Below the pieces are notes generated by a model. That model was not told the DNA's origin. It worked only from the letters and a program-made list of their open reading frames with translations, and searched no databases. Made by a program: the position numbers and the translations under genes. A stretch of 42,063 bases of DNA from a virus. Positions 2,788-22,706 of this stretch are shown here, piece by piece (the stretch's first letter is position 1; every line of letters starts with the position of its first letter). The stretch is taken from positions 1 to 42,063 of IMG/VR virus record IMGVR_UViG_3300040781_000253. The stretch is one strand, 5' to 3'.

Positions 2788-2942
2788 AAAATGAAAATGA
2801 GACTCAGATCAAAAAATTAATGAATGAGAGTGGTAAAGGTTATGCTTTTTGTTCGATAGCTTATTATTTTAATAATCGCAATTATGAGGAAGCATATAAA
2901 TTTTTAAAGGAAAATAAATCATTAAGAACCATAGCAAAATAA
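2784..2942 (+). CDS. 52-aa protein resembling the EF-Ts N-terminal (UBA-like) domain
   Basis: The reading frame starts at an ATGA overlap with the recombinase and ends 3 bases before the helicase, so it is translationally coupled on both sides. The protein (MKNENETQIKKLMNESGKGY... EEAYKFLKEN...) follows the TS-N/UBA pattern of elongation factor Ts: I-K-x-L, then a Ser-Gly-x-Gly turn (residues 16-19), Cys23, Ala26, then an N-x-E-E-A-x-x-x-L-K-E helix (33-43). In EF-Ts this three-helix domain contacts EF-Tu. A stand-alone copy is unusual. The similarity is a by-eye pattern match over about 36 residues. An unrelated small three-helix protein remains possible. Confidence 0.7.
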   Translation: MKNENETQIKKLMNESGKGYAFCSIAYYFNNRNYEEAYKFLKENKSLRTIAK

Positions 2943-2945
2943 AAT

Positions 2946-4802: not shown

Positions 4803-7274
4803 ATGGCAGAAAAGAAAAATACATTTAATCTTCCGATTGAATATGCTAATTTAGATTTTTCATTATTGGAGTCAGCATTTATAGATTTCTTTAAAAATAA
4901 TCCAGAATCACCATTTACTGATTATCGCCATGATGGTGCTGGTATGAAGAATATGCGTAAATTAATTGTGTATATGCTTCATTATCTTAATTTCTATCTT
5001 AATTTGGGTATTAGTGAGAATTATTTAAGTAAAGCTATTTTGGAAGATAACGTGTATAAATTAATTAAAAATTTTAATTTTATACCATTTGGTAAAACAC
5101 CTGCTAGATCATATATGGAAATCAAATTTTATAGAGGTAGAACAAATCTAACAAGACTAACAGTTGCTTCTACGGTAGGTTTTGTGTTAAATGAAACAAT
5201 ATATGATAATGCCGTACCAGCTTCAGCAACAAAGTCTGGAGAATTGTTAATTATAGATGCAACAAATAATTATCTTTATATTGATCAAACAGTTGGATCG
5301 ATTTTTACTGGTGCTGATACTGCATATGGCAGTATGGCTTCAAGTGCAATTGGTGCTGTTGCTTCCTCACAAGATTATTACTCAACTGATGATGCTAGTA
5401 ATTTCACATTAAAATTTACTCATGCTGTTTATGATTCAGGTGATTATGGTGTACCAACAATGAGAGATGTATATCAGGAAAGTGAGTATATACAGAGTGT
5501 GCTTGATATTTACAATGAAAACAAGGTTATTTTAAATATTGAACCTTATATTGATACTACTAATTACAGAAGATATTTAAAGGCAAAAATACCTTTAATG
5601 CAAGCTAATTGGAGAACTGTTGAAATTAATAATATTGCTGATATAACTGAGTTAGACGGATCGCAGAAATTATATTTAACAGTTGATGGTTTAAAGGACG
5701 TTAATAGTGAATATAAAGATGCAGTATTAAAAGAAACAGTAAGAGTTTTCGTTTTACCATCTGGTTATAGTAATTGGACTACTGAGTCTATAGAGTTTAC
5801 AAATATTATGGATCAGCCTTTATCTGCTAATTTAAATCAATTTAAATTAAACTATGATCAGACATATGGTCTTTATGTAAAATTTAATATAAGTAATTTT
5901 TCAAAGGAATTACAAACTGGTGATAAACTAAGAGCTATTTTCGCAACAACAAAAGGTGATGATATCAATGACGTTGAAGGTACAAATGAGTTTAATCCGA
6001 CTGCTGGTAATATGGCTGATATAGGTTATCTTCAGATCAATGAAACGAATGGATCAACTTTATATGAAACAGAATTAGGTGTGGTTGCAGTTGGTAGTAA
6101 TACTTATAGTGAAGGTGGTTCAAATTATGATGCAATAACTCTTAGGATGGTTGATGAAAATGATAATTTAGATACTTTTGATGATGGTCAGGCTAAACAA
6201 GATTTGGACTCAATAAAAGAAATAGCACCATTATATTATAATGCACAAGGAAGGGCAATAATAGCTGATGATCTCTACCCAATAGTGAAATCAAAATTTA
6301 CAGAATTTAGAGATATTGCTGTTTGGGGAGGTCACACAGAATTTTTAGATTTAAATCAAGTTTTAAATGATGCTTTTGATGATAACGATATTACTGCTCC
6401 ATCATCATTAACATTATCTGAATTTAAATTAGCATTCAGACAGGCGAATTATCAAGTAAGTAAATATGGTTTGTTAGCAGTAGAATCTATAATAGATTCA
6501 TCAATAAACAGTGGTGACTATAAACCGGATTTAGGTCATTTTTACTATTCTCTTATAGGTCAGAATTTTGATTTTGAAACTCAAGCATCTACATACTCAA
6601 TGATAGAAGATTTTATAGATGGTAAGAAAATAGAAACAATATTTATGAAACATATGTACCCAACATATCTTTGTATGAATATTAATTTGGTTTTAAAAGT
6701 TAATAAGGCATATACTAATAATATCAGTGCATCTGATTTAAAACAAAGAATAAGAGACTATGTGAACACAAAAACTTATTATGCAAAGAAAACTTTCAAT
6801 ATCGAAGATTTAAAATCAGTAATACAAGATTATGATGAGATTAGTTTAGTAACATCACTTAATATTACATATAATGCAAAAATAAAACCAACCGCTGTTT
6901 CCGTACCATTAACACCTACTATAAGCGAATACACATATCTTAGAGTATTTAATCAATTAACAGGTGATATTGGTAGTTCATCAGTTATTAATGCTGTTGA
7001 TAATAATGGAAAACAGTATAGATTCTATTCAGACTCATCTAGCACACCAGTTATCAAAATTCAAGATGTTGCTTCTGGAGTTATATATACTCAAACATCA
7101 TGGTTATTTAATGAGAACTTAGGTATGCTGAGATTTCAATATGATTTTAATGATGCGGATTATGTTTATATAAATAATATTCCTATAAGAAATCTAAATA
7201 ATCAAATTTTATCAAATAAAGAATGTATTTTGGGTGTTGAATTCGTAGATGATATTAATATCATATTAACATAG
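4803..7274 (+). CDS. baseplate wedge protein, gp6/J-like
   Basis: This 823-residue protein would form the baseplate ring by dimerising, like T4 gp6 or P2 gpJ. The N terminus (LPIEYANLDFSLLESAFIDFF, FTDYRHDGAGM..LIVYMLHYLNFYLN) matches the gp6 pattern of a helical N-terminal domain. The C-terminal third (KQRIRDYVNTKTYYAKKTFNIEDL..VIQDYDEI) matches the J-like C-terminal strand/helix module. Around residues 140-190 a small insert resembles the SGA module found in three other virion proteins here. Position directly after gp25-like supports the call. Full homology over the middle part could not be judged by eye. Confidence 0.75.
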   Translation: MAEKKNTFNLPIEYANLDFSLLESAFIDFFKNNPESPFTDYRHDGAGMKNMRKLIVYMLHYLNFYLNLGISENYLSKAILEDNVYKLIKNFNFIPFGKTPARSYMEIKFYRGRTNLTRLTVASTVGFVLNETIYDNAVPASATKSGELLIIDATNNYLYIDQTVGSIFTGADTAYGSMASSAIGAVASSQDYYSTDDASNFTLKFTHAVYDSGDYGVPTMRDVYQESEYIQSVLDIYNENKVILNIEPYIDTTNYRRYLKAKIPLMQANWRTVEINNIADITELDGSQKLYLTVDGLKDVNSEYKDAVLKETVRVFVLPSGYSNWTTESIEFTNIMDQPLSANLNQFKLNYDQTYGLYVKFNISNFSKELQTGDKLRAIFATTKGDDINDVEGTNEFNPTAGNMADIGYLQINETNGSTLYETELGVVAVGSNTYSEGGSNYDAITLRMVDENDNLDTFDDGQAKQDLDSIKEIAPLYYNAQGRAIIADDLYPIVKSKFTEFRDIAVWGGHTEFLDLNQVLNDAFDDNDITAPSSLTLSEFKLAFRQANYQVSKYGLLAVESIIDSSINSGDYKPDLGHFYYSLIGQNFDFETQASTYSMIEDFIDGKKIETIFMKHMYPTYLCMNINLVLKVNKAYTNNISASDLKQRIRDYVNTKTYYAKKTFNIEDLKSVIQDYDEISLVTSLNITYNAKIKPTAVSVPLTPTISEYTYLRVFNQLTGDIGSSSVINAVDNNGKQYRFYSDSSSTPVIKIQDVASGVIYTQTSWLFNENLGMLRFQYDFNDADYVYINNIPIRNLNNQILSNKECILGVEFVDDINIILT

Positions 7275-7282
7275 GTGTAAAG

Positions 7283-8704
7283 ATGGCTTATATAAGTGAC
7301 TCCTTTAAAACAAAGAAACGACTTGAGAATTTTGAAAAAGAATTACTAAAACAAAATGTTCGTACTGAATATCCTAATTTTGAAAAATTTATAAAACATT
7401 TATTGGCTATGTTGGATAAATATTCTGTTAATGAGTTTAAAGAGGACTCTAATAATTCATATTATGCTAATTTAACAAATTTTATTAAATTTATTTTTGT
7501 TGATGAACTTCCTTTAGATAGTGATAAAATCTCTAAAGCATATATTGATGATTATGCTTCTACTGTTGATTTTAGAACAAAAAATCTAAATACTGATAAT
7601 GAAAATTTTAGGGAATTATTAAAACATATTGCGCCTTTATATGGTATGAAAGGAGGCTCAAAAGGTAATGCTTTTTTTATTAGGCTTATAGATGAGTTTA
7701 CATATTTTGGTGAAACAAAAAAGTTTAACATTGATTTATTTTTTAATACTAATAATTTTAATGTTGCAAATATGCCACCAGAATTTGATGATATAAAACA
7801 TCAATTAAAATTAAGTGGTATTACAGGAACATTTCAGGTTGGAGACGTAATAACTGGTAGTGTATCTGGTGCATCAGCAACAATAGCAAATATTTTTACG
7901 GACAGAGATCATATTTATTTAGATGATAGTTTGGTTGTCACAGGTACATTTCAGTCAGGAGATGTAATCACAGGTAGTCTTTCGGGTGCAATTGCAACTG
8001 TTACTGAGTATAATCAAGACACAACAATATTAACTGAGATTCCAGTATATGAATATAATACAACAACAGGTAATGTTGATAGAGAAGCGGTTGTATATGA
8101 GTGGCAAAAAGGGTCAAGAGCATTTGAGTATCAATTAGTTAGTGGTCAAAGTGATTTTAATATATCAGGGCTATATAATTATGTTGATCAAAATTTTCAT
8201 CCTGCTGGTTACTCATGCTGGATTTATGTTAAAATTGATGATGTTTTAGCTAGTATACCTTTAGGTGTTGCAGTATTTCCAAAAATTTATGTACATACAG
8301 GTTTACCTTATGCCAGAACGGTTGATACAGCAACTGAAGGTTATACAGGAACAAATTTCCCACCAATTGATCAAGCAAGACAAGGCTATCCAATATATAT
8401 CTCGGGTACTGTTGCTGTACCTTATGGTGCAGGAGGATCTTTTACTGATGAGTGGATAATGTATGATGATACAACCTCAACGTGGGTAGATACAGCCGAT
8501 CCTCTATTTTTGTGGAATATTATTGATTTAAATTCAGATTTTCCATTACCTTATAGTAATCCTGCTGGTGTTAGAAATGGTGATACATATTTAATAGGAA
8601 CAAATGTTACTGATAATGATGCAACTAAAACAAATACTGGTATGAGTTTCACTAAAGGAAAAATAATTCAGTGGTTTGGTGATCCTACGGGATGCTGGTA
8701 TTAA
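7283..8704 (+). CDS. baseplate/tail protein with SGA repeats and C-terminal receptor-type module
   Basis: The 473-residue product is probably a baseplate-peripheral protein, at the place of P2 gpI or T4 gp7/gp8 between the J-like protein and the tail fibre. Residues 1-165 are helical and include HIAPLYGMKGGSKGNAFFIRLIDEF, suggestive of the gpI type. Residues about 180-255 hold two copies of a repeat (GTFQ.GDVITGS.SGA.AT). Residues about 360-473 contain strands ending NGDTYLIG... KGKIIQWFGDPTGCW, resembling the DUF2793-type module of phage tail proteins. No catalytic motif is seen. The family assignment of the N terminus is tentative. Confidence 0.6.
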   Translation: MAYISDSFKTKKRLENFEKELLKQNVRTEYPNFEKFIKHLLAMLDKYSVNEFKEDSNNSYYANLTNFIKFIFVDELPLDSDKISKAYIDDYASTVDFRTKNLNTDNENFRELLKHIAPLYGMKGGSKGNAFFIRLIDEFTYFGETKKFNIDLFFNTNNFNVANMPPEFDDIKHQLKLSGITGTFQVGDVITGSVSGASATIANIFTDRDHIYLDDSLVVTGTFQSGDVITGSLSGAIATVTEYNQDTTILTEIPVYEYNTTTGNVDREAVVYEWQKGSRAFEYQLVSGQSDFNISGLYNYVDQNFHPAGYSCWIYVKIDDVLASIPLGVAVFPKIYVHTGLPYARTVDTATEGYTGTNFPPIDQARQGYPIYISGTVAVPYGAGGSFTDEWIMYDDTTSTWVDTADPLFLWNIIDLNSDFPLPYSNPAGVRNGDTYLIGTNVTDNDATKTNTGMSFTKGKIIQWFGDPTGCWY

Positions 8705-8708
8705 TTGA

Positions 8709-8721
8709 TTTGTTGTTGCTA
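8709..8721 (+). promoter_or_regulatory. leader box variant TTTGTTGTTGCTA
   Basis: A variant of the recurring leader box with an extra TTG, placed just upstream of the late-like promoter box rather than next to a ribosome binding site. The unusual order suggests either an overlapping function or chance. Confidence 0.3.
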
Positions 8722-8730
8722 TGATTTGAT

Positions 8731-8738
8731 TATAAATA
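8731..8738 (+). promoter_or_regulatory. T4-late-like promoter box TATAAATA
   Basis: The octamer lies in the 69-base gap before the tail-fibre gene, 35 bases upstream of its ATG, at a distance fitting a short leader with GGAGA. Confidence 0.6.
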
Positions 8739-8773
8739 AATATAAGAAATAATATTAAAATGGAGAATAAATA

Positions 8774-10666
8774 ATGACTTTGCAGATTGGTGTTGGAACT
8801 ATCTCCAAGAGAGGTTTAGATATAATCAATTATTGTGCTATGAATGGCGTTACTTTAGAATTTCAAGAAGTTATTGTATCGGCATGGGCTACACCTGATT
8901 TTACTAATATTACTGATCCTGAATATGTGTTTGGTACTGGTTTATCAGCATCAAATGGTTTAGTTAAAGAAAAATTTGAAAGTACAATAACAGCAACAGG
9001 AGCCGCAACAGTTGAAGGAACAATAACAAAAGGTGATGAATCATTTGGTACAGCATCTTATATATTACCACTTGCAAGTCAACTTCCAGTTAATGCCGTT
9101 ACATCTCAGATTGATGTAAGATTTTATGGATTATTTGTAAATGATCCTGAAGGTAAAAAATTAACTTTGGGTGTTGGAGAAGGGTCATATTTCTCGATTA
9201 GTGATAGCGTATCAGGTAGTGGTTGGAGTGGTACGGTTATTGATGTTATTAGTGATGTTATATATGTTAGTAATGTTGTGGGTACACTAGGAACGGGTAC
9301 AGTTAATGGTGGTACAAGTTCAGCAACATGTAGTGCTGTAGGCGATTCTAAGATATTGTTTTATTATGGTTGTCTGCAATATGATGATGTGACACCTTCT
9401 ATAGAAGCAATTTCTTTAATACCCGGTATGAATATGCCCTTTCGAACAGAAATCCGATATTCAAGTGGCTTACCAAGCAATATTACATTTATTAATACTG
9501 CAACTGCTGAAATAGAAATACATAATTCTGAAGCTTTAGCTCATGAATCAACATTATTGATGTTGGATGGGTCAAACAATCCAAGTGCTGATGTATCATG
9601 GGGTAATAATAAAATAACAAATTTGACAAATGGTACTGGTGATAAAGATGCTATAAATTTAGGTCAGCGCGAAACTATTGATAGTATTAGTTATGACTCA
9701 ACTTTTAATAATGCAGATGTTCATACAAATTTTAATAATTTTGCTTACTATATCACAACACTACCAAAAAGAATAAACAAAACAGTCACATTGACACTTG
9801 GTGCGAACGCAACACAATATGATGGTATAACTGGTGATATTGCAGAAATTAGTGGATTTCATGGCAGTGGTGAATTAATTATTGATCTTGGAACATATGA
9901 TTTAAATACTGGTGCTGGTAATCTTGGTATGACACCAACTGACATGGTACTTATTAAAAATAACACATTACCTATAACAATTAAGAATGGTAATATAATC
10001 GCTCAATTTAATACTACAACAACAAAAGCGGTAATAAGAATCAAGAATAATTCAGGTAAAGTTAGTTTTGAATCATCTTTGGATATTGATAATGGTATTA
10101 ATACGGATTATATTATTGGCATTTATGCTGAGAACTCAAGAAATGTGCATGCTACATCAATAAATTTTTCTAGTGATGGTTGGAAAGGTTTTGTTTCAGA
10201 TAATAGCGTAATCACATTAGGTGCGTCAATAAGTTCAGTTGGTATAACAAATGGTCAACAATATGCACAATATTGTTTAAATGGTGGTAAAATAAATGTT
10301 AAAGAAACATCACATATTACAACATCAAATACTGGTAATTTTCATTTTTATATTGATGAAGCCAATGGTGGCGGTAGCTATGCAAGAAAATTTAAACTAA
10401 TTAAAGTACTAAATAGTGATGATAATAGTAATTATACTTATGGTGGTATAATTTCTTGGGGATCAGCAGGTCCAACTCATTTAGGTTATGGCATAGTTGT
10501 TGATTTAATAGGATCATGTAATTTGTTAGTTTATGTACTTTCTGGATCAGCACCAGTTGCTGGTAATTTTATTGATAATGTTATCACATATGCATCAGCA
10601 ACAGATCAAATTGACACGGTTGTAGATAAACATGCTGAGGTTGATGTTTCTGTAGATATACAATAA
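8774..10666 (+). CDS. tail fibre / tail-collar fibre protein
   Basis: A 630-residue likely receptor-binding fibre. Residues 1-120 (LQIGVGTISKRGLDIINYCAMNG, then beta-rich PLASQLPVNAV) look like the virion-attachment part of tail-collar fibre proteins. Residues about 140-195 hold a divergent SGA-type repeat (SVSGSGWSGTV.. GTGTVNGGTSSATC). At about 270-300 the fibre motif SADVSWGNNKITNLT-NGTGDKDAINLGQ occurs, the linker found before fibre shafts in many phages. The C-terminal 300 residues are Ser/Thr/Asn/Gly-rich and beta-helical in style. No fibre-assembly chaperone gene was identified next to it. The host receptor is unknown. Confidence 0.75.
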   Translation: MTLQIGVGTISKRGLDIINYCAMNGVTLEFQEVIVSAWATPDFTNITDPEYVFGTGLSASNGLVKEKFESTITATGAATVEGTITKGDESFGTASYILPLASQLPVNAVTSQIDVRFYGLFVNDPEGKKLTLGVGEGSYFSISDSVSGSGWSGTVIDVISDVIYVSNVVGTLGTGTVNGGTSSATCSAVGDSKILFYYGCLQYDDVTPSIEAISLIPGMNMPFRTEIRYSSGLPSNITFINTATAEIEIHNSEALAHESTLLMLDGSNNPSADVSWGNNKITNLTNGTGDKDAINLGQRETIDSISYDSTFNNADVHTNFNNFAYYITTLPKRINKTVTLTLGANATQYDGITGDIAEISGFHGSGELIIDLGTYDLNTGAGNLGMTPTDMVLIKNNTLPITIKNGNIIAQFNTTTTKAVIRIKNNSGKVSFESSLDIDNGINTDYIIGIYAENSRNVHATSINFSSDGWKGFVSDNSVITLGASISSVGITNGQQYAQYCLNGGKINVKETSHITTSNTGNFHFYIDEANGGGSYARKFKLIKVLNSDDNSNYTYGGIISWGSAGPTHLGYGIVVDLIGSCNLLVYVLSGSAPVAGNFIDNVITYASATDQIDTVVDKHAEVDVSVDIQ

Positions 10667-10693: not shown

Positions 10694-12364
10694 GTGGCTA
10701 AGATAAAAAAACGTAAAAAGAGTCAACAATCATTAGTTGAAATAGATTATCGTAAATATTATAATGGTCTTGAAGGAATACGTAATCAAGGTGTACAAAT
10801 TGAATTAACAATAAATCAAAAAATGGAATATCAGAGGTGTAAAGCTGATCCAATTTATTTTATAGAAAACTATTGTTATATTGTTACTCTTGATAGAGGT
10901 TTAGTTAAATTTAAACCATATGAATATCAAATAGATGCTCTTTATATGATAATGGAGAATAGATTCTCTATATTTAATTGGGGTAGGCGACTTGGTAAAA
11001 CAACTATATTTGCTGGTTTGGCTACTTGGTTAATGGTATTCTCAGATTATTATAAAATTGGTTGTTTTGCTGATAAAGATGAAGATGCTATGACTCTTAT
11101 TGATATTGTACAAACAATGTATTCAAATCTTCCAATGTGGTTACAAAGAGGAGTATCATCATGGAATGCTCACTCAATTGAATTGGAAAATGGATCACTA
11201 ATAAGAGCAAATGCAACAACTTCTACATCTGGACGTTCTAAAGGTTATAATTTTATCTATGTTGATGAGATCGCACATATTAGAAAAAATATTTTTATGA
11301 AATTCTGGTCTGCTGTTTCACCAACTATATCATCAGGTACAACATCAAGAATATTAATGACCTCTACACCAGATGGTATTAATCATTTTTATGATTTTTA
11401 CACTGAAGCTGATATGGGTAAAAATGGTTTTACAGCATTTAAAGTTACATGGAAAGATCATCCAGATAGAGATGAAAAATGGGCTATTGAAGAATTACAG
11501 AGACTTAAAGGTGATAAACGTGCTTTTGCTCAGGAGCATGAGGGTGACTTCTTAGGTTCTGCACGTGCTTTAATTGATGGTGATAAACTTAAAGATATGT
11601 ACAAAAACAAACAAACTGGTAGATTTGTGAAATCTGCATTGAAACCAGATTTTATGTATAGAGTTTTTCATGACCCTTTACCACATCATAAATATATGAT
11701 TACTGTTGATCCTGCTGAAGGTTTAGGTTTAGATTCCACATGTATAAATGTTATTGATATATCATCAATTAATAATTTTACTCAGGCTGTTGTTTTTAAT
11801 GATAACACCATATCAACAAATGAATCACCATATATTATAAAAGAATTAGCTAAAAAATATAATAATGCGTTTGTAATAGGCGAAAGTAATGTTTGTGCTG
11901 ATTTATATCAAATACTTGTTTATGATCTTGATTATAAGAATGTTTATAGAGATAGAGATTCAGGTAAGATTGGTTTAAGAACAACAAAAGCAACTCGTGA
12001 CAAAGGGCTTAAAATGCTCAAAGATATCATTGAGAAAAATAAATTACAAGTCATTAATGAGAACACAATTTATGAGTTTACAAGATTTATTGAAATAAAT
12101 GGTAAATATCAAGCTGATGAAGATGAGCATGATGATGAAGTTATGTCATTATATTTATTTGCTTGGTTTATTAGTGATAGGCATAGATTTAAATTATGGT
12201 TAGCAGATATTGAATTTATGTTTAACATGTATAATGCTAATGTAAAAGATAGTGATTACTCACTAATGATGAATGAGGTTATTAGTGATTCTTTAGAAAA
12301 TGATCCTGATATAATCAATAGATATTCACCTATTGATTATGATCCTTGGAATGAACAATATTAA
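10694..12364 (+). CDS. terL: terminase large subunit (gp17-type DNA-packaging motor)
   Basis: The ATPase and nuclease cut concatemeric DNA and pump it into the prohead. The ATPase domain has Walker A WGRRLGKTT (about residues 96-104), Walker B FIYVDEIAHI (about 187-196) and the coupling motif LMTSTPDG (about 219-226). The RNase H-fold nuclease domain has TVDPAEG (about 337-343), VIGESN (about 396-401) and the acidic pair in DEDEHDDEVMS (about 475-485). At 556 residues it is slightly shorter than T4 gp17. The start is a GTG at 10694 with only a weak ATAGGT upstream, and no TATAAATA precedes it. It may be read through from the fibre gene. No small terminase subunit was seen. Confidence 0.92.
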   Translation: MAKIKKRKKSQQSLVEIDYRKYYNGLEGIRNQGVQIELTINQKMEYQRCKADPIYFIENYCYIVTLDRGLVKFKPYEYQIDALYMIMENRFSIFNWGRRLGKTTIFAGLATWLMVFSDYYKIGCFADKDEDAMTLIDIVQTMYSNLPMWLQRGVSSWNAHSIELENGSLIRANATTSTSGRSKGYNFIYVDEIAHIRKNIFMKFWSAVSPTISSGTTSRILMTSTPDGINHFYDFYTEADMGKNGFTAFKVTWKDHPDRDEKWAIEELQRLKGDKRAFAQEHEGDFLGSARALIDGDKLKDMYKNKQTGRFVKSALKPDFMYRVFHDPLPHHKYMITVDPAEGLGLDSTCINVIDISSINNFTQAVVFNDNTISTNESPYIIKELAKKYNNAFVIGESNVCADLYQILVYDLDYKNVYRDRDSGKIGLRTTKATRDKGLKMLKDIIEKNKLQVINENTIYEFTRFIEINGKYQADEDEHDDEVMSLYLFAWFISDRHRFKLWLADIEFMFNMYNANVKDSDYSLMMNEVISDSLENDPDIINRYSPIDYDPWNEQY

Positions 12365-12390: not shown

Positions 12391-12420
12391 AAACTAGAAA
12401 AATAAGGAGGATAATATCCA

Positions 12421-14988
12421 ATGTCATATTCAAAAATTACAGTTAAAATGGATAAATTTAATATAACCAGACCAAATATAAATGGTTTGGGTTTTGGTAT
12501 GTTGAACTGGGGTCCGATTGCTTTACCTATAGATGTTGATTATCTCAATTATCAATATCAAATAGGAGAAAAATGTGACGAAAATGATATTTTCTATCAA
12601 GACCTTTTGAGTTATTTAGAGTACTCACCACAGAGTTTACTTGCATATCGTGTATCACCTCGAACAAACACAGGGACGTTTGATTCTTCAGGCGATTTAA
12701 TATCAAGTATAGGTGTAACTCACTCTCATCTTTTTATGACAGGAGAATTAGAATCTGCTGATATGAGTACCGAGACTCAAATTAGTGCTTCTGTATCTAT
12801 GGGTCAACGAGGAGGGTTTGGTCTCGTTAATTATAATGATGATCTTTACTTAACTGGTGGAACTGATGGTACAACTTATTATGATGATGTTTGGAAAAGT
12901 ACAGATAATGGTTTAACATGGACTCAAATAAAAACTGGAGCGGCATTTGGTACATTGGCATATCATGGAATGATTGTCTATGATGGTAAAATGTGGGTTA
13001 TTGCTGGTACAACGAATGGAATAGCTGGTCAAGATCATGTTTTCTCATCAACTGATGGTATTACATGGACAGATTTAGGTGCAACCGCTGTTGGTACAAG
13101 AATGCAGTTTGGTTTAACAGTACATGATGGTAAAATGTGGGTTGCTGGTGGATTTCTATTTTCGCTTGGAGCTATTGTTGCTACAGCTTTTTCATCTACA
13201 GATGGTATTACATGGAGTGCTGAAACAGCCTTACCTTATGCTGTACAAAATCATGGCATAATAAGTAAAGACTCAAAATTATGGTTAATTGGTGGTTCAT
13301 CCAGAAATCAAGTTTATTCTGATAGTGGTACAGGATGGGTTTTAGAAACAACATTAGCAGATAATACAGATCAATTTGCTTTACTTGAAACAGATGATAA
13401 AATTTTTATTGTTGGTGGTACATATAATAGTATACCTGATTTTAGAATATATGAAACAGTAGATTGCATAACATGGACAGTTGTAGATACATCATCTACA
13501 TCAATAACACCAAGATATGATAGTAGTGGAGTTATTACTAGTGATAATAAAATAATTTATATGGGTGGTTTTATTACAATTTTTTTCCCACCATTTATCG
13601 ATTATTTTCAAGATGAATGGAGTATAGAGTTTACTACAGCACACGGATTTTTACCCTCTATATGGAATGAAAATTACAATGGGTCAGATTTATATTTAAA
13701 ATTAAATGAACAAATAGAAGCAATAAATACACCAACATTTCATGATTTACAAATAATGGCTATTATGGCTAAATATGCTGGTGATTATGGTGATAATCTA
13801 AAAGTTACTATTGCTTCTTATTTAGATAATTTAAATCAGATAACATTATTTAATGAAAGTGATAATTTAACTAGAAATTATTATTTAAGTGAATTATTTA
13901 ATCGTAAGTTAAATATAAATGAACATGTTATGGTTGTGTGTAAAGACGGTGTAATACTGGATAAGTTTATTTTTAGTTTAGATAATACGGATATAAGGTA
14001 TATAGATAATATTGAATGTGCTTATTTAGATTTTTATGTTAATCCAAATTATACAAAAGCCATAAGTTCTGATACTGATTTAGATAAAAAAAAGAAAGCA
14101 ATTTATAACACAACATATACAGCATTATCATTGGGTAATTCAGGATTTAATAAAATAACAAATGCTGATTATGAAAGAGATTTAGAATTATTAAAAGATA
14201 GATATTATGCCGATTTTAGAATAATATTTACATCAGGTGATAATACAACAATACATGAATATGCAAAAAATGTTGTTAATCAGAGAGGAGATGCAGAGTT
14301 AATAATTTGTGCTCATGAAAAATTCTATTATACATCAATATTTGGCTTCGACTCATATGGTTTAAGTGCAACTGGTTCCGTTGTATCACTGAGTTTCAAT
14401 GTTTATGATTATTATGAAACGATAGATAGTAAAAATGTTGCTTTTTTCTATAATTATAAAAAAATTGATGTTAACGGTACAATAAAAAATCATTCTATTG
14501 CTGGTGATTTGGCTGGAACAATAGTTCAGGCAATGATTAATATGAAATTTAAAGAAATTGGTTTTTTGGAATTTGGTAATAATATATTATCTATTAATGA
14601 TTTGGATAATATAGTTATTAATTCATTAAATTTATCATATGTTAATGTTATGGCACGTTCAGGTCTCACATATAAAATTAAAGGTGATTGTGTTATGAAA
14701 GATGTATCATATGGTTTAAATTATCAAATGATTAAATTATATGTAATTTCTGCTTATCTTTCATGGTCTGATTTAATGACACATGAAAATATGGATGATG
14801 AATTAAGTAAAGATTTAGATAAATTAACAGAAAATATAAATACGATGCTCAGTAATTACACAACAGAATTTCAAACTTATAGTAAAATAAATATGGATGA
14901 GTTTAGAGTGACTTTAGAAATAAGTTTCAAAATCAATGATGTTTATGAGGGCATATCAATCCTTTTACGTGATGTAACCAACTTATAA
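12421..14988 (+). CDS. tail-sheath-family protein with inserted six-bladed Kelch propeller
   Basis: The 855-residue product combines two folds. Residues 1-110 start like a sheath protein (GLGFGMLNWGPIALP, matching the GLAIGGTWGPAN of the next gene). Residues about 130-405 hold six Kelch-type blades, each with a hydrophobic strand, D-x-K-[ML]-[WYF]-[VLI]-x-G-G and, in most, S-[ST]-D-G-[IL]-T-W. Residues 405-855 return to sheath features: MAKYAGDYGDNLKVTI, then YERDLELLKDRYYADFRIIF, and the tail YEGISILLRDV. It could be a minor sheath or tail-end protein that displays the propeller on the virion surface. The SD is 10 bases from the ATG. Confidence 0.75.
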   Translation: MSYSKITVKMDKFNITRPNINGLGFGMLNWGPIALPIDVDYLNYQYQIGEKCDENDIFYQDLLSYLEYSPQSLLAYRVSPRTNTGTFDSSGDLISSIGVTHSHLFMTGELESADMSTETQISASVSMGQRGGFGLVNYNDDLYLTGGTDGTTYYDDVWKSTDNGLTWTQIKTGAAFGTLAYHGMIVYDGKMWVIAGTTNGIAGQDHVFSSTDGITWTDLGATAVGTRMQFGLTVHDGKMWVAGGFLFSLGAIVATAFSSTDGITWSAETALPYAVQNHGIISKDSKLWLIGGSSRNQVYSDSGTGWVLETTLADNTDQFALLETDDKIFIVGGTYNSIPDFRIYETVDCITWTVVDTSSTSITPRYDSSGVITSDNKIIYMGGFITIFFPPFIDYFQDEWSIEFTTAHGFLPSIWNENYNGSDLYLKLNEQIEAINTPTFHDLQIMAIMAKYAGDYGDNLKVTIASYLDNLNQITLFNESDNLTRNYYLSELFNRKLNINEHVMVVCKDGVILDKFIFSLDNTDIRYIDNIECAYLDFYVNPNYTKAISSDTDLDKKKKAIYNTTYTALSLGNSGFNKITNADYERDLELLKDRYYADFRIIFTSGDNTTIHEYAKNVVNQRGDAELIICAHEKFYYTSIFGFDSYGLSATGSVVSLSFNVYDYYETIDSKNVAFFYNYKKIDVNGTIKNHSIAGDLAGTIVQAMINMKFKEIGFLEFGNNILSINDLDNIVINSLNLSYVNVMARSGLTYKIKGDCVMKDVSYGLNYQMIKLYVISAYLSWSDLMTHENMDDELSKDLDKLTENINTMLSNYTTEFQTYSKINMDEFRVTLEISFKINDVYEGISILLRDVTNL

Positions 14989-14997
14989 ATATAAATA
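14984..14997 (+). promoter_or_regulatory. two overlapping T4-late-like boxes TATAAATA
   Basis: TATAAATA occurs at 14984-14991 and again at 14990-14997, overlapping the stop codon of the Kelch-sheath gene and lying 44-57 bases before the main sheath ATG. A doubled box would suit the most heavily made tail protein, but whether both are used is unknown. Confidence 0.6.
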
Positions 14998-15040
14998 TGG
15001 AATGCAGAATTTTATTTAACTTATAAAATAGGAGAGAAAG

Positions 15041-17479
15041 ATGGTTGGAAGCCCAAAGAATACTTTTTCCGAAATAGATAGCTCATTTGGTATTGAATCT
15101 TTACCAAGTGCCAATATGGGTTTAGCTATTGGTGGAACATGGGGTCCAGCTAATCAGATTATGGGTACAACTAATAAAAAAGCATTAGCTAATCTTATTG
15201 GAAAACCTATATTAACTGGTTATACTGGGGCAAATGCTAGAACATGGATGGTTGCCAGAGAAATTCTCAACAATTATTCAAGCTCACTTTATTTAGTGAG
15301 AGCTGTAAAAGATGATAATACATCAAAAAACTCATTTTTAGGTGTTACAAGAGATGCTGATACTCATTCATGGGTTAATGGTGAAGATCAATTGAGATAT
15401 CTCAATGATGATGATGCTGAACCAACTGTACTTATGCCTGATGTAAGATTAAAAATGAGTGATGTTTCTGGTTTCGTTGTCGGTGATAATGCTGTACAGT
15501 TAACATCAACAGCTACAGGTGTTATTTGTTCAATAGATACTATTAATAGTTATCTTTATGTATCAAGTACTTCAAGTGCTACATATACAGTAGTTGCCGC
15601 TCATACAATTGCGGATGGTGGGGCAGTTGCTCGTACTGTAAGTGAAGTTAGATCATTTGAAAGCAAAGTGAGACTTACACTTGGTGGTACTGAAGTAAAT
15701 ACATTTAGACTTGGTGAAATAGTTACACAGGCAACATCATTAGCAACTGGTGTTGTTACTGGTATGGATATTGACAATGATTATCTTTATCTCAATGATA
15801 TCGAAGGTACATTTAATGGTACAAATGCAGTAACAGGATCTTTATCTGGTGCAGGAACAGCATCTGCATATACTTTACAAAATGTTGATGCCGTAAATGA
15901 TGTATTGGGTATTTATGCTGTTTATGCTGGTGCAAATGGAAATGATATCGATGTAGCAATTGCAGACGCGAATAATTACTATGCTGATATGACATATAAT
16001 GGTACTGATAAATTTAGTGATGAGTTTGAAACTGGTCCGAATATTGATTATAATTACGTAGAAGCAGTAACAAAAATTTTAACAGAAGCAGAAGCAATTA
16101 TTGCACCAACTGCTAAACATCAAATTACTGGTGCAAGATATGCAATACCAGAAGTTTCTACAAGTGTACATGGATCTTGGGTAGGTAGTGCTGGTGATAT
16201 CGTTGAATGGTCTGGTGCGGCTTGGACAATAAGTGCAACAACTGCTGTTGATGATTTCTTTTACTCTGATGTTGATAATGCTCATTATAGAGTTTCAGTA
16301 GTTGGTGGAACTTATGTTGCCTTTGCACCGGAATTAGCAATTATAGTTACATATGAAGATGAAATAGTTGAAAGACATATAGTATCTACATCTGAGAGTG
16401 CATTGACAATTGAAAGCGAACCAATGTTTATTGATGAGTATCTGGAAAATAACTCAAACTATATAAGAAGCAAATCAAGAACTTCTGCTGGATCATTAGC
16501 ATCAAATGATCAGACTATTGAAGAATTTGGTGGTTATTTTACATTAACCGCTCTTAGTGCAGGAACAACAGCGGCTCCAGCTTTAGCAGAGTTACAAAAT
16601 GCAATTGATGTTTTCTTTACCGATGAGCAAATTGATGTTGGTTTACTTGGAGATAATCACGATCTTACATCGAACTCAGATGTACAGAGTTTGCAGAATT
16701 ATATAATTGGTAAATTGTCAGTTAATAAACTCAAATTTGCTGCTTTCTCATTACCTTCTGATGTAATTGATATGACTCAATCTTCTGCAACGTTAGCAAG
16801 TGCAGATGCTGTTACTTACCTTGCTGGTATAACAGTTGAATCAAGGGCTATGATGACAGAGCAATGGAAAAAAATAAGTGATGAATATAACTATAAAACT
16901 TATTATATTCCAATGACTGGTGATGTACTCGGTAAACTATCACGTACCGAAACAGATTTTGGTGTAAATAAATCACCAGCCGGTGTAAGAAGAGGAATAA
17001 TGCAAAATGCGGCTAGACTTCTTCATAAAACAAATGGTGGTGTTAGAGATATACTCTGGAATAATAGATGCAACTCAATATTCTACATGAGTAATAAAGG
17101 TGTATTGCTTTGGGGTGATAAAACTCTCTATAATCAGGCAACATCTGCTATTTCATCAATATCTGGTAGACGTACACTTACACAAATTGAAAAAGATATT
17201 ATGAATAATCTTGTTAATTATAATTTTGAAAACTCTAACCCTGATGTTTGGGCTGAAGTTACTCAGATAATTAGTTTAGATTATCTTGCAACAAAAAAAA
17301 CATCCGGTTGGTTATATGATTATAGATTCCAGTGTGATGATAAAAATAACCCTGAAGCAGTACAGGATAATTTTGAGATGTATATTGATTTGGCTGTGAA
17401 ACTTTTTAAAACTGTTAGGTATATTTACCTCAGAATTAAAATTGTTAAAACATCTGTATCTTTTGAAGAAGTAGCATAA
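15041..17479 (+). CDS. major tail sheath protein with inserted surface modules
   Basis: The contractile sheath subunit (T4 gp18 type). The N terminus has GLAIGGTWGPANQIMG and LYLVRAV. The C-terminal core shows the usual sheath signatures SPAGVRRGI, RCNSIFYMSNKGVLLWGDKTLY, SGRRTLTQIEKDI, NYNFENSNPDVW and SGWLYDYRFQCDDKNNP. At 812 residues it is longer than T4 gp18 (659) because of inserts: SGA-type repeats at about 140-280 and a DUF2793-like module at about 363-425 (GARYAIPEV.. GDIVEWSGAAWTI.. VDDFFYSDVDNAHYRV). Both would sit on the outside of the tail. The tube gene follows 19 bases later. Confidence 0.9.
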   Translation: MVGSPKNTFSEIDSSFGIESLPSANMGLAIGGTWGPANQIMGTTNKKALANLIGKPILTGYTGANARTWMVAREILNNYSSSLYLVRAVKDDNTSKNSFLGVTRDADTHSWVNGEDQLRYLNDDDAEPTVLMPDVRLKMSDVSGFVVGDNAVQLTSTATGVICSIDTINSYLYVSSTSSATYTVVAAHTIADGGAVARTVSEVRSFESKVRLTLGGTEVNTFRLGEIVTQATSLATGVVTGMDIDNDYLYLNDIEGTFNGTNAVTGSLSGAGTASAYTLQNVDAVNDVLGIYAVYAGANGNDIDVAIADANNYYADMTYNGTDKFSDEFETGPNIDYNYVEAVTKILTEAEAIIAPTAKHQITGARYAIPEVSTSVHGSWVGSAGDIVEWSGAAWTISATTAVDDFFYSDVDNAHYRVSVVGGTYVAFAPELAIIVTYEDEIVERHIVSTSESALTIESEPMFIDEYLENNSNYIRSKSRTSAGSLASNDQTIEEFGGYFTLTALSAGTTAAPALAELQNAIDVFFTDEQIDVGLLGDNHDLTSNSDVQSLQNYIIGKLSVNKLKFAAFSLPSDVIDMTQSSATLASADAVTYLAGITVESRAMMTEQWKKISDEYNYKTYYIPMTGDVLGKLSRTETDFGVNKSPAGVRRGIMQNAARLLHKTNGGVRDILWNNRCNSIFYMSNKGVLLWGDKTLYNQATSAISSISGRRTLTQIEKDIMNNLVNYNFENSNPDVWAEVTQIISLDYLATKKTSGWLYDYRFQCDDKNNPEAVQDNFEMYIDLAVKLFKTVRYIYLRIKIVKTSVSFEEVA

Positions 17480-17498: not shown

Positions 17499-18032
17499 AT
17501 GAGTATTGATACTTTAGAGATCTTTCAGAAGAAATTTTACCCAGATGCGGTTAGGTCAAATTTATTTTACATTTATATAAATTTCCCTACTTTTATATTA
17601 AATTCTTCTGATGCAAGAACAAAAACCAAATGGTTAGTACAAGCCGCTTCATTGCCGGGAAGATCACTTGGTGTTATTGAAGTGCCATTTAGGGGTGTAA
17701 AAAGTAAATATGCTGGAAACTCAATATATGCAGATTGGTCAGCAACTTTCTTACAAGATCCGAGTTTTACAATTACTAATGCAATGGAAGCATGGATGGA
17801 ATATATAGAGAGTATACCAGCCGGAATTAGAGCTGTGGATATCAGTTATAAAAGTACAATTGAGATTGTTCAGCTTGATGGTCGTCAAAATGCAATTAAG
17901 AACTATGTACTTATTGGTGCATTTCCTTCAGATAAACCAGATGTAAGTCTGGCACAAGATGAGAACGATTCAGTGCAAATGGCAGATTTCACGTTATCCT
18001 ATGATTACTTTATTACGTCAGTTAGTCTTTAA
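17499..18032 (+). CDS. tail tube protein (gp19-like)
   Basis: This 177-residue protein forms the inner tube through which DNA is ejected. Family features are AASLPGRSLGVIEVPFRGVKSKYAG (Leu-Pro-Gly-Arg strand and G-x-x-x-x-Y-A-G turn), YADWSATFLQDPSFTITNAMEAWMEYI and the C-terminal strand MADFTLSYDYFIT. Length is close to T4 gp19 (163). It lies directly after the sheath, the standard order. ATAGGAGAG precedes the ATG. CATAAATA at 17479-17486 is a one-mismatch late box, so it may also have its own start. Confidence 0.92.
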   Translation: MSIDTLEIFQKKFYPDAVRSNLFYIYINFPTFILNSSDARTKTKWLVQAASLPGRSLGVIEVPFRGVKSKYAGNSIYADWSATFLQDPSFTITNAMEAWMEYIESIPAGIRAVDISYKSTIEIVQLDGRQNAIKNYVLIGAFPSDKPDVSLAQDENDSVQMADFTLSYDYFITSVSL

Positions 18033-18126: not shown

Positions 18127-18945
18127 ATGAGATTATGTGAAGTATGTGGACGCAATGAAAAAGAAACAAGAGTTAATCATTGGAAATTGTATAATCAAAC
18201 ATTATGTAGTAACTGTTATCAAAGAAAGAAACATAATTTACCTGATAATAAATTCTATAGTAAAAAAAGTGAAGATAAAATTTGTGGAATATGTGGTTTA
18301 AATGAAAAAGATGCAAATGTTCGATTTGTTAGAAGTAGAAAATTTCAAATGATGTTATGTAATAAGCACTATTTACAAATGCAAAGAGATGGTGAAACAA
18401 AAAAGCGAACAAAAAGAGACCCAAACACTTTTATAATTAAAGATGATTATTGTGAAATAATTTTATATAATATAAAATCTGAGGAAGTTGGAAGAGCTTT
18501 AATTGATTTAGAAGATATAGCAAGATGTAAAAAGTATAAATGGACATTAAATAATCGTGGTTATGCTTTTAATTCAAATTATGTTGGTTTACTACATCAT
18601 TTTATTTTAGATTTTGAATATAATAAAAAAGAAAATATAGTAACAGATCATATTAATCGTAACAGATTAGATAATCGTAAAAGAAATTTAAGATTAATAC
18701 ATGAAAGTAAAAATCATTCAAATATAAGTTTAAAATCAAATAATACATCAGGTGTTATGGGAGTTTATAAAATAAAAAATAGACCTAGTTGGGAAGCTTT
18801 TATTGCAATTGATGGTAATAGAATAAGTCTTAAAAGTTATAAAACTAAAAAAGAAGCTATAATAGCCCGACTTAAAGCGGAGAAAAAATATTTTGGAGAA
18901 TTATATGCACCACAAAGACATCTATTTAAAAACTACAATATATAA
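18127..18945 (+). CDS. HNH homing endonuclease with zinc ribbons and AP2-like domain
   Basis: A free-standing, selfish DNA endonuclease inserted inside the tail module. Residues 4-31 and about 53-80 form two short zinc modules (CEVCGRNEKE..CSNCY and CGICGLNEKD..CNKHY), near-duplicates of each other. The HNH part has LLHHFILD (about 155-162) and VTDHINRNRLDNRKRNLRLI (about 172-191), which supply the catalytic His and Asn residues. Residues about 208-258 (GVMGVYKI..WEAFIAIDG..LKSYKTKKEA) form the AP2/ERF-like DNA-binding module common after HNH_3. It has its own promoter. No intron or intein was seen, so it is intergenic. Confidence 0.88.
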   Translation: MRLCEVCGRNEKETRVNHWKLYNQTLCSNCYQRKKHNLPDNKFYSKKSEDKICGICGLNEKDANVRFVRSRKFQMMLCNKHYLQMQRDGETKKRTKRDPNTFIIKDDYCEIILYNIKSEEVGRALIDLEDIARCKKYKWTLNNRGYAFNSNYVGLLHHFILDFEYNKKENIVTDHINRNRLDNRKRNLRLIHESKNHSNISLKSNNTSGVMGVYKIKNRPSWEAFIAIDGNRISLKSYKTKKEAIIARLKAEKKYFGELYAPQRHLFKNYNI

Positions 18946-18953
18946 TATCATAT

Positions 18954-18981
18954 TTGACAATTTAACTAATATTAGTATAAT
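18954..18981 (+). promoter_or_regulatory. sigma70-like promoter of the Vsr-like endonuclease gene
   Basis: TTGACA at 18954-18959, 16-bp spacer and a perfect TATAAT at 18976-18981. The leader box TTTGTTGTTA (18990-18999) follows, then GAGAG and the ATG at 19010. Confidence 0.8.
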
Positions 18982-19009
18982 TAATATTATTTGTTGTTAT
19001 GAGAGATTT

Positions 19010-20704
19010 ATGATGCCAGCATCAAGAACATATGATTTTTATATAAAAAAATTTAAAATAATTCATAATAATTTTTATATATATCCAAAACATCAGGAAC
19101 TTGTTAATAGAACAAAAACATATATAGATATTAAATGTCCTAAGCATGGATGGTTTAAACAAACAATAGAATCTCATTTTAGAGGAAGAGGTTGTAAAAA
19201 ATGCTCTCATGAAACTGTTGGAAGATTAAATGCAAAATCTTATAATTATTATATTGGAAAAGCTAAAAATAAACATGATGATTTTTATCATTATCCTAAA
19301 CATCAAGATATAAAAAATAACGAAGATAAAATAATGATTAAATGTCCTAAGCACGGATGGTTTAAACAAAAATTAAATAATCATTTAAATGGTAATGGTT
19401 GCCCTAAATGTGGTTATGAAAAAACATTATCATATCTTAAAAAAACATTTAAAGAACATATTAAAGAATGTAGATTAGTACATAGAAATAAATATGAATA
19501 TAAAGAACCATCTGGTCATTATGATATTTTTACTAAAATAATGATTAAATGTCCTAAGCATGGATGGTTTAAACAAACTATAGATTCCCATAAGCGAGGT
19601 AATGGTTGCCCTGATTGTGGATTAGAAAAAAGAGTAGAAAAAACTAAAATAACATATGACGCTTATATAAAAATAATGAAATTAATTCATGATAATTTTT
19701 ATAAATATCCTAAACATCAAGATCTAATAGATGGTGTTTATACTAAAATAAAAATAAGGTGTCCTAAACATGGTTGGTTTAAGCAATCTTTAAACAATCA
19801 TAAAAAAGGTCATGGCTGTCCTAAATGCACTATTGGCACATCTAAAGCAGAAGAAGAAATAAGTAGTTGGCTTAAATCAATTGGCATCAAAAATATCAAA
19901 AACAATTATAAATTTAATTATGAAGGTAGGAGATTTGAGATTGATGTTTATTTACCCGATTTTAATTTAGGTATTGAACATGATGGGCTTTATTGGCACA
20001 GTGATCAATTAAAGTCGAAAGGATATCATAAAGAGAAAACTGAATTTTTTAAGAAAAATTTTAATATAGACATTATACATATATTTCAAAATGAATGGAT
20101 TTTAAAATCCAAAATAGTAAAATCAATTATTTTAAGCAAATTAAATAAATCTGAAAATATATTATATGCTCGTAAATGTATTATAAAAGAAATTGATAAT
20201 AAATTATATAAATCATTTCTTATGAATAATCATATACAAGGTTATATACAAGCTAAATACAAATATGGATTATTTTTTAATGATGATCTTGTTCAAGTAA
20301 TGTCATTTGGTAAATCAAGATATAATAAAGATTATGATTTTGAAAATATAAGATCATGTACTAAAATAAATACTCAGATTATTGGTGGATTATCTAAATT
20401 ATTAAAATATTTTATTAAAAATGAAAATCCTAAATCAATTATAAGTTATGTTGATTTAAGATATTTTAATGGTAATGGATATATTAAAAATAATTTTAAA
20501 ATAATAGGGCAAAGTGAACCAAATTATTTTTATTTCCATAAAACTTCAATGATTTTAGAATCAAGATTAAGATATCAAAAACATAAATTGGAAAAAATAT
20601 TAGATAATTTTGATGTTGGTTTATCTGAGTATGAAAATATGATAAATAATGATTATTTAAGAATTTTTGATTGTGGTAATTTAAAACTATTATATACATC
20701 TTAA
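19010..20704 (+). CDS. Vsr/PD-(D/E)xK-like homing endonuclease with four zinc-ribbon repeats
   Basis: The first about 270 of 564 residues are four tandem repeats of about 65 residues, each with an F-Y-x-Y-P-K-H-Q-like strand, KCPKHGWFKQ and a closing G-C-x-x-C. Each supplies a Cys-His plus Cys-Cys metal site. The nuclease part follows: SKAEEEISSWL (about 280), FEIDVYLPDFNLGIEHDGLYWHS (about 308-330) and FFKKNFNIDIIHIFQNEW, the layout of Vsr-like homing endonucleases. A C-terminal region of about 170 residues is unassigned. ATG 19010 was chosen over 18893 because the latter overlaps the HNH gene and precedes the promoter. Repeats also show at DNA level. Confidence 0.82.
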   Translation: MMPASRTYDFYIKKFKIIHNNFYIYPKHQELVNRTKTYIDIKCPKHGWFKQTIESHFRGRGCKKCSHETVGRLNAKSYNYYIGKAKNKHDDFYHYPKHQDIKNNEDKIMIKCPKHGWFKQKLNNHLNGNGCPKCGYEKTLSYLKKTFKEHIKECRLVHRNKYEYKEPSGHYDIFTKIMIKCPKHGWFKQTIDSHKRGNGCPDCGLEKRVEKTKITYDAYIKIMKLIHDNFYKYPKHQDLIDGVYTKIKIRCPKHGWFKQSLNNHKKGHGCPKCTIGTSKAEEEISSWLKSIGIKNIKNNYKFNYEGRRFEIDVYLPDFNLGIEHDGLYWHSDQLKSKGYHKEKTEFFKKNFNIDIIHIFQNEWILKSKIVKSIILSKLNKSENILYARKCIIKEIDNKLYKSFLMNNHIQGYIQAKYKYGLFFNDDLVQVMSFGKSRYNKDYDFENIRSCTKINTQIIGGLSKLLKYFIKNENPKSIISYVDLRYFNGNGYIKNNFKIIGQSEPNYFYFHKTSMILESRLRYQKHKLEKILDNFDVGLSEYENMINNDYLRIFDCGNLKLLYTS

Positions 20705-21138: not shown

Positions 21139-21552
21139 ATGTTATATTTTCGTGATATTCTTGGTACTATCAATTATAATGGTACAGAGGTTATAAATAT
21201 ATTTCGAAATATTGATTTTGATGTTCTAAAGAATTCTAATTTTTTAGATGATTATATCATACAGGATGGAGAAACACCAGAATCTATTAGTTTAAATTTA
21301 TATGGTGATAGAGATCACGCATGGACTATAATGATCATAAACACAATTCAGAATAGATTTTATGATTTTCCATTAACCGATAAACTTGTCGAGAAAAATA
21401 AACAAGATATGCTCCTGATGGGTTATACATTAACAGAAATTCAAGAATTTGAAACTGATAATGATGCTAAAAGATATATAAAAGTATTAAAACCATCGGT
21501 TATGCAATCTTTCTTATTTCAGGTACAAGATAAAATAGCTGGTAGGTTATAA
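21139..21552 (+). CDS. baseplate wedge protein, gp53-like
   Basis: This 137-residue protein matches the T4 gp53 type, which joins neighbouring wedges in the baseplate. The family core is DDYIIQDGETPESISLNLYGDRDHAWTIMIIN (residues 47-78): a LysM-like pattern with a Gly-Asp-x-Asp-His-x-W turn and a conserved Asn. GGAG sits inside the upstream stop region. The end overlaps the next start by one base (TAATG), indicating translational coupling with the tube-initiator gene. Confidence 0.8.
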   Translation: MLYFRDILGTINYNGTEVINIFRNIDFDVLKNSNFLDDYIIQDGETPESISLNLYGDRDHAWTIMIINTIQNRFYDFPLTDKLVEKNKQDMLLMGYTLTEIQEFETDNDAKRYIKVLKPSVMQSFLFQVQDKIAGRL

Positions 21553-22706
21553 TGAGTCAAATATTAGCAAAAACAAAAGAAGAACTTTTAGCTGAGATTA
21601 TTAAAGGTTTATCAGCTCTAATTGCAGAAAATGAAAATTATCTATCACCAGATACTCAGAAAATAGCTAATGATTTAAAAGCTCAATTAAATGCTTTTTC
21701 ATCTAAAGACCCAGTTGCAGTTGATTTGGATAAGTTTAGATCTAATTTGGAATCATTGCGAGATAAAATTGGTCAAGAGGGTAATAAAATATCTGTTGAT
21801 GATATCCCAGAAAATAATAAAAAAATTCTCGATGCTCATGACGGTCCGAAAGGTAAATCTGATGGTGGCTTAATAAAAAGTATTGCTGAGTTAATGAGTA
21901 ATTATGCTCAACAGGTTCTTTTAAGTTTAACCTATGCGGCTGGACAGAGTTTCATTACTGCTGGAATTTCTAAATTATTAGGAAATCAACCTCGTATTGT
22001 AAGTACTAATGAAGATGAATATGTATTTAATAGCAATGAAATGAATGCTGCTAAAGATAAAGCAAAAGATGATTATGTTAGATTTCAAGATTATATGAAT
22101 ACTGTACGTGCATATAATTTTAATTTATTGCAGAGATGGCGAGTGGAATTTAGTGATAGAAAATTTTTTAATTCTACAGATAAATTATTATTTTCACACT
22201 ATGCTACTGAAGTTGTATTACCTTTTCCAAGTATCACATTAGGTACAATTAATTATGGTAGATATATAAAAGATGTACAAAGTATGACCAATCGTCCTAT
22301 TAGTATATCATATCTAATTGATTTAAATATGCATATTGCTAATAAGTTTAATTATATTTTATCTTCAATGGGTGACCCTGATACTGGTATATTAGGTTAT
22401 AAGGATGATTATGTTATAGATAAATTAGTGATAATGGTTGAAAATAATAATTTGGGTATAGTTTTAAAATATATATTTCATGATCTTGTTATTGCTGATA
22501 TGAATGAGATAACAGTTAGACAAGAAAATAATGAGGTTCAGTTATTGAATTTGACTTTAGATTATGATTATAAAAAAGTCATTGTTGGTAAGAAAGATAG
22601 AGATAATATAGTAGCTGATAAAGCCGCTTCATTATTGGATGTTTTAGATACAAAAAAGGATTTTGGTTTTATTGTAAATCCCGATGGCGCACCTATAGAC
22701 CAATAA
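21552..22706 (+). CDS. baseplate-to-tail-tube initiator, gp48/gp54-like
   Basis: A 384-residue protein whose C-terminal half looks like a tail-tube fold: RWRVEFSDRKFF, then ATEVVLPFPSITLGTINYGRYIKDVQSMTNRPISISYLIDL, and the closing strand NNEVQLLNLTLDYDYKKVIVG, parallel to the end of the tube protein (DSVQMADFTLSYDYFI). T4 gp54 and gp48 share the tube fold and start tube growth on the baseplate. The N-terminal 180 residues are helical, with a Gly/Ala stretch near 135-150 that may be a membrane-like or packing helix. The partner gp48 or gp54 is not separately seen, so which one this corresponds to is open. Confidence 0.65.
   Translation: MSQILAKTKEELLAEIIKGLSALIAENENYLSPDTQKIANDLKAQLNAFSSKDPVAVDLDKFRSNLESLRDKIGQEGNKISVDDIPENNKKILDAHDGPKGKSDGGLIKSIAELMSNYAQQVLLSLTYAAGQSFITAGISKLLGNQPRIVSTNEDEYVFNSNEMNAAKDKAKDDYVRFQDYMNTVRAYNFNLLQRWRVEFSDRKFFNSTDKLLFSHYATEVVLPFPSITLGTINYGRYIKDVQSMTNRPISISYLIDLNMHIANKFNYILSSMGDPDTGILGYKDDYVIDKLVIMVENNNLGIVLKYIFHDLVIADMNEITVRQENNEVQLLNLTLDYDYKKVIVGKKDRDNIVADKAASLLDVLDTKKDFGFIVNPDGAPIDQ

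Follow-up and report, generated by a model that had tools for sequence, protein, structure and literature searches.

What is a Kelch propeller doing in a gene lodged between the terminase and the tail sheath of a T4-like phage? The window, i.e., the whole stretch of DNA analysed here (42,063 nucleotides), is a 42 kb virus record from IMG/VR that derives from a deep-branching T4-like myophage. It codes for UvsX, a DnaB-like helicase, baseplate wedge proteins, a hub protein, a fibre, HNH/homing endonucleases, the terminase large subunit (TerL), the protein under study (hereafter X), a tail sheath, a tail tube and a tube-like protein, and its TerL is about 35% identical to that of isolated T4-like phages. 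The genes around X are:

8774-10666: the phage's fibre
10694..12364, + strand: terminase large subunit (gp17, TerL; Pfam/PHROGs), the upstream neighbour of X here and in two relatives, L006 and G001
12404..12410, + strand: strong Shine-Dalgarno sequence of X, AAGGAGG (from the sequence)
12421..14988, + strand: X, sheath paralogue with an inserted Kelch propeller, 855 aa (ORF calling, Pfam, profile comparisons)
15041..17479, + strand: main tail sheath (gp18), 812 aa (phrog_23, 2.6e-42)
17499..18032, + strand: tail tube (gp19; phrog_45, 7.8e-41)
21139-21552: baseplate wedge protein, gp25-like by size and place
21552-22706: second tail-tube-family protein, 384 aa (phrog_45, 1.9e-13, residues 156-353)

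The last of these is possibly a tube initiator of the T4 gp48/gp54 type whose N-terminus bears a long extension. Positions 18893-20704, which adjoin an HNH gene and lie between the tube gene and those of the baseplate, encode a protein of 603 aa in which treble-clef zinc fingers recur (DUF4379/DUF723) and which matches a homing endonuclease (phrog_559, 1e-137). At the other end of the window lie a phage-borne tmRNA gene (43-443; Rfam RF00023, 138.9 bits; tag AKEENNVISPVFGFSNHEVLEAVA) and, after it, a tRNA-Gln (587-660). Neither T4 nor the T4-like phages that we compared, which have the same gene order, carry a sheath-like gene between TerL and the sheath; X is thus an extra gene between gp17 and gp18. 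Its ORF is intact from an ATG start, and its 855 residues fall into the following parts:

12421..12741, + strand: residues 1-107, the N-terminal sheath part, comprising the gp18 N-arm, Domain III-N and the first strand of Domain II (alignment with the L006 and G001 orthologues and T4 gp18)
12742..13653, + strand: residues 108-411, insert absent from the L006 and G001 orthologues, at the site of gp18 Domain I (98-188; alignments)
12814..13647, + strand: six-bladed Kelch propeller, residues 132-409 (Pfam; blade anchors; Asp-box consensus from PMC2716378)
13654..14988, + strand: residues 412-855, the remaining gp18 Domain II, Domain III-C and a shortened Domain IV (alignments)

An earlier note on this DNA had placed a propeller at residues 130-405, and this assignment holds with slightly shifted limits: six GG-type blades occupy residues 132-409, with anchors at 140, 188, 236, 284, 325 and 375 (DDLYLTGG, DGKMWVIAG, DGKMWVAGG, DSKLWLIGG, DDKIFIVGG and DNKIIYMGG), within an insert that spans approximately 108-411 relative to the orthologues. 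We counted as Kelch proteins those with four to seven blades bearing the GG motif and a Pfam match over its cut-off. In addition to its six blades, X is matched above the curated cut-offs by PF24681 (3.5e-18; 66.1 bits, cut-off 50), Kelch_1 (1.3e-14; 53.8 bits, cut-off 20.1) and Kelch_4 (32.2 bits, cut-off 21.6), and Kelch proteins in the PDB also match this region. Further, blades 1, 2, 3 and 5 bear Asp-box or short-Asp-box turns (STDNGLTW at 160, STDGITW at 210 and 259, TVDCITW at 346), the consensus being S-X-D-X-G-X-T-W and the short form S/T-X-D-X-X-X-W (PMC2716378). With such turns in four of its six blades, the propeller is a hybrid of the Kelch and Asp-box types; among known structures, propellers that mix repeat types are described as rare (PMC2716378).

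The blades are 24-43% identical to one another in protein. Blades 2 and 3, previously described as near-identical in DNA and hence as recently duplicated, prove to be alike only in motifs of 28-30 nt (89-90%) and are 43% identical in protein over their whole length. At their identical residues the same codon is used in 10 of 17 cases, against 9.2 of 17 expected from codon usage alone; because this sharing is at chance level, a recent duplication is unsupported. Likewise, the codon usage of the insert (-0.754) lies inside the phage's own range (-0.771 +/- 0.062), and a very recent foreign origin of the Kelch segment is not detectable. The full-length AlphaFold model of X, a check that the earlier note had proposed, has a pLDDT of 42.6, which is too poor to use, with the Kelch region not resolved. 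The form of X with a Kelch insert is represented by one instance on one contig.

The nature of the flanks is less readily apparent. On their own, and even with the threshold relaxed to E 10, they match nothing relevant in either Pfam or PHROGs; compared by BLASTP, X and the adjoining main sheath show no meaningful similarity. The motifs by which the flanks had been likened to the sheath give no sheath match, and neither they nor single-sequence searches are usable as evidence for membership; the relation itself, in contrast, is borne out by family profiles. The X/L006 pair without the Kelch segment aligns by hhalign to 13 sheaths with 97.3% probability (E 2.7e-11, 393 collinear columns) and to a larger sheath set with 98.3% (E 1.7e-14), against at most 0.2% for the controls (reversed, column-shuffled, TerL and tube). 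A three-member X profile aligns to T4 gp18 over 491 columns (T4 residues 17-642) with 97.5% probability. When the ORFs of 166 loci are searched with the X-profile HMM, only sheaths are found besides X itself, and all ORFs outside the X family that are matched by any X-family HMM are sheaths; reciprocally, the sheath profile recovers the L006 orthologue at 3e-9. Among the 152 loci with a sheath, these profiles detect a second sheath-family gene only in the window and L006. For the window's protein the homology is visible through the family profiles of its relatives and not through direct library searches with its flanks. The X-family profile has no sheath match among PDB sequences at E 1, and solved sheaths are thus out of reach of sequence alone.

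Structure prediction points the same way. The AlphaFold model of the L006 orthologue (P0006; pLDDT 67.5, pTM 0.69) retrieves tail sheaths with Foldseek (best 1.1e-15) and superimposes on a phage sheath with a VIA Z of 24.1 (440 residues, rmsd 4.8) and on T4 gp18 with a Z of 22.3 (458 residues, rmsd 5.2). This model was built on an alignment that included sheaths, and it supports the homology without being independent of it. By the profiles and the orthologue's predicted structure, then, X is a member of the gp18 tail-sheath family whose flanks are predicted to keep the sheath fold. It is a second, strongly diverged sheath paralogue beside a normal gp18. The main sheath (15041-17479) has a peculiarity of its own, in that about 200 residues separate Domain III-N from the AVYAG motif, with repeated segments of the 'A-T-G-x-V/I' type that are also seen in the sheaths of L006 and G001. 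Nine long sheaths (775-888 aa, from eight other phages and L006) contain neither a Kelch nor any other non-sheath Pfam domain.

The relatives were recovered by alignment-based TerL and tube searches and by a DNA pattern for Kelch blades; patterns built on single sequences found nothing. L006, from the TerL-alignment scan, is an environmental phage closely related to that of the window, to which it is 46% identical in TerL, 63% in the tube, 43% in the sheath and approximately 30% in X. Its X orthologue (547 aa) has no Kelch segment and occupies the same place, in the order TerL-X-sheath-tube. The second relative, G001 (L170/L237/L238, 22.9 kb), was found with the Kelch-blade pattern and is organised as follows:

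755-2440: TerL
2491-3801 (L237): N-terminal half of X (XN), 436 aa, matching X residues 1 to ~665 (HMM 1e-38; PHROG tail sheath 8.6e-6)
5422-10017: Kelch protein, 1531 aa, between the halves of X
12965-13555 (L237): C-terminal half of X, 196 aa, matching X residues 670-834 (tblastn 2.2e-6, HMM 1e-9)
13607-15985: main sheath, followed by the tube

Here X is split near the position of T4 gp18 residue 455. The first half adjoins TerL and the second the sheath, which are the places where X starts and ends elsewhere, and each half has its own start codon; this suggests that in G001 an ancestral X was interrupted by some 9.2 kb of DNA with genes of the adhesin type among its contents. The intervening stretch holds fibre-like genes, the 1531-aa Kelch gene and small ORFs, and a search for inverted repeats bounding it gave nothing convincing. 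By lying between the halves, the Kelch gene ties Kelch to X physically for a second time. Of the 15 phage Kelch ORFs compared, it also gives the best overall match to the Kelch segment of the window, albeit with a small margin per blade. The order TerL-X-sheath is kept between phages so distant that their TerL proteins are 34% identical.

Beyond these contigs, a set of 50,697 phages gave no tblastn match to X, to its L006 orthologue or to the Kelch domain. XN of G001, searched against the same set, matched loci whose annotation reads tail sheath or hypothetical protein, plus one unannotated phage, Nitratidesulfovibrio phage SRB7757, which we rejected as an isolate with X since the sole sheath-family ORF in 24 kb around the match is an ordinary sheath. 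X is thus not detectable in isolated phages by either search. In 28 other T4-like contigs, several of them longer than 125 kb, there is at most one sheath-like match each, and no recognisable sheath was found on 12 other Kelch-bearing viral contigs, a weak result given that this search had no positive control. Two viral contigs from different samples, L187 and L221, encode proteins (at least 730 and at least 1177 aa, respectively) whose N-terminal Kelch regions look the same, and possibly represent the same phage.

The alignments also locate the propeller within the sheath fold. Most of the stretch corresponding to gp18 Domain I (98-188) is absent from X and from its orthologues in L006 and G001, and the Kelch insert (X 108-411) is flanked by residues aligning with T4 positions ~178 and ~184, which is the place of Domain I. 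This domain of T4 gp18 protrudes outward, takes no part in contacts between subunits and serves as a binding site for the long tail fibres when these are retracted (PMC3004832). Since the insertion site is that of this outward domain, it is a reasonable inference from the alignment that the propeller would lie on the tail surface.

We accordingly distinguish what X may display from how it may be built in. Our preferred reading, to which we assign a probability of roughly 0.6, is that X is a sheath paralogue whose propellers are displayed on the tail, where they serve in adhesion or in the docking of fibres, its homology, fold and insertion site being drawn from alignments and models. The gene would be an addition between the terminase and main sheath genes in a deep T4-like lineage; its product would keep the sheath fold and carry a complete six-bladed Kelch/Asp-box propeller in the Domain I slot; and a few copies would be built in or on the tail, for example as one specialised hexameric ring at a sheath end, with the propellers held on the outside. 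There they may provide an accessory adhesive surface for glycans or proteins of the host or of particles. Alternatively, they may dock fibres, as gp18 Domain I does for the retracted fibres of T4. The data are compatible with either role; docking, in this case of the phage's own fibres, follows what is known of Domain I. We infer the presence of X in virions, the position of its ring, its copy number and its ligand.

The residues that sheaths use to assemble bear on this reading and on its competitors. We took as signature every column conserved in 85% or more of a set of 40 sheaths. Of the 94 such residues in Domain IV, X keeps 14-19 and T4 60; of the 12 in the N-arm, X keeps two and T4 six. 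The last residues of gp18 are also missing from X. Thus, the inner domain, which provides the sheath-sheath and sheath-tube contacts, has mostly lost its conserved residues with the fold apparently kept. With this interface signature mostly gone, X can hardly be expected to take the place of gp18 throughout the tail. More probably it is a minor component of the tail with a specialised role and does not make up the bulk of the sheath.

The same loss could be a sign that X has ceased to assemble with the sheath. X would then act off the sheath as a chaperone, decoy or other intracellular factor, with Kelch serving as an intracellular protein-binding domain, as it does in eukaryotic Kelch proteins. 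The fast divergence of the family (orthologues approximately 30% identical, against 43% for the sheath, 46% for TerL and 63% for the tube) and the splitting of X into two ORFs in G001 would also fit such a derivative. However, all three phages have kept X, in each case among the tail and packaging genes, its fold is retained over the whole length, and its neighbours in G001 are fibre-like and giant Kelch genes, on account of which we hold this explanation to be unlikely.

A two-component sheath, in which X and gp18 polymerise together over the full length of the tail to present many propellers, is in our estimate quite improbable. In its favour, the X and gp18 genes stand in tandem, both with good ribosome-binding sites, and phages with two sheaths do exist: Pseudomonas phage PaBG has two sheath-family proteins that arose by duplication (gp76/gp213; Kurochkina 2018, as cited in PMC7412058), both found in virions and, in that secondary account, thought to co-polymerise along the tail. 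According to the same account, however, the PaBG proteins are of similar size, 38% identical and both sheath-like, whereas X has diverged too far from gp18 for BLASTP, carries a Kelch propeller and is missing both most of the conserved positions of Domain IV and the C-terminal end of gp18. That X is a decaying, functionless duplicate with a fortuitous insertion would account for the lost signature and the split in one relative, but is very improbable in view of ORFs intact in all three phages, a strong Shine-Dalgarno sequence, six complete blades with ordinary phage codon usage and a gene order maintained while TerL fell to 34% identity.

Our preferred reading of X as a displaying paralogue joins elements that are already known separately, namely extra outer domains on sheaths, two-sheath phages such as PaBG and Kelch proteins in large phages. 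T4 gp18 (Domains I-IV; PDB 3FOA, 3J2M) resembles X in its collinear profile (17-642), in the fold predicted for the orthologue and in having an extra domain at the Domain I place; X differs from it in being a second copy, in bearing Kelch instead of Domain I and in having lost most of the Domain IV signature and the C-terminal end. The multi-domain phage sheaths (PMC9230969) likewise carry extra domains, inserted into the sheath core on its outer side and proposed to aid adhesion, but these are mostly Ig-like or helical, and we found no propeller or Kelch domain in the text of that study. Kelch propellers are present in proteins of jumbo phages, such as CBB_552, which is a virion protein; unlike the case of X, a fusion to a sheath protein is not reported there (PMC5259590). 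The open-access literature that we searched yielded no description of a sheath-family protein with a Kelch propeller inside it, and none of a sheath paralogue whose halves flank a Kelch gene.

Tentatively, and with rather less confidence than we place in the display function as such, X and its relatives may constitute a distinct class of tail proteins, in which duplicated sheath subunits serve as display platforms with the outer-domain slot swapped for adhesin modules. In one lineage Kelch would be fused, and in another the subunit would be split around a giant Kelch adhesin and fibre, its halves assembling non-covalently into an adhesive tail ring.

Contractile sheaths are usually viewed as uniform springs. 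The Domain I site would mark a place where sheath proteins tolerate a 300-residue propeller, and the split orthologue around a Kelch gene in G001 offers a natural comparison. A sheath duplicate freed from the duties of the spring, with a propeller at the place of Domain I, would show phages making the surface of the sheath itself adhesive or a site of docking.
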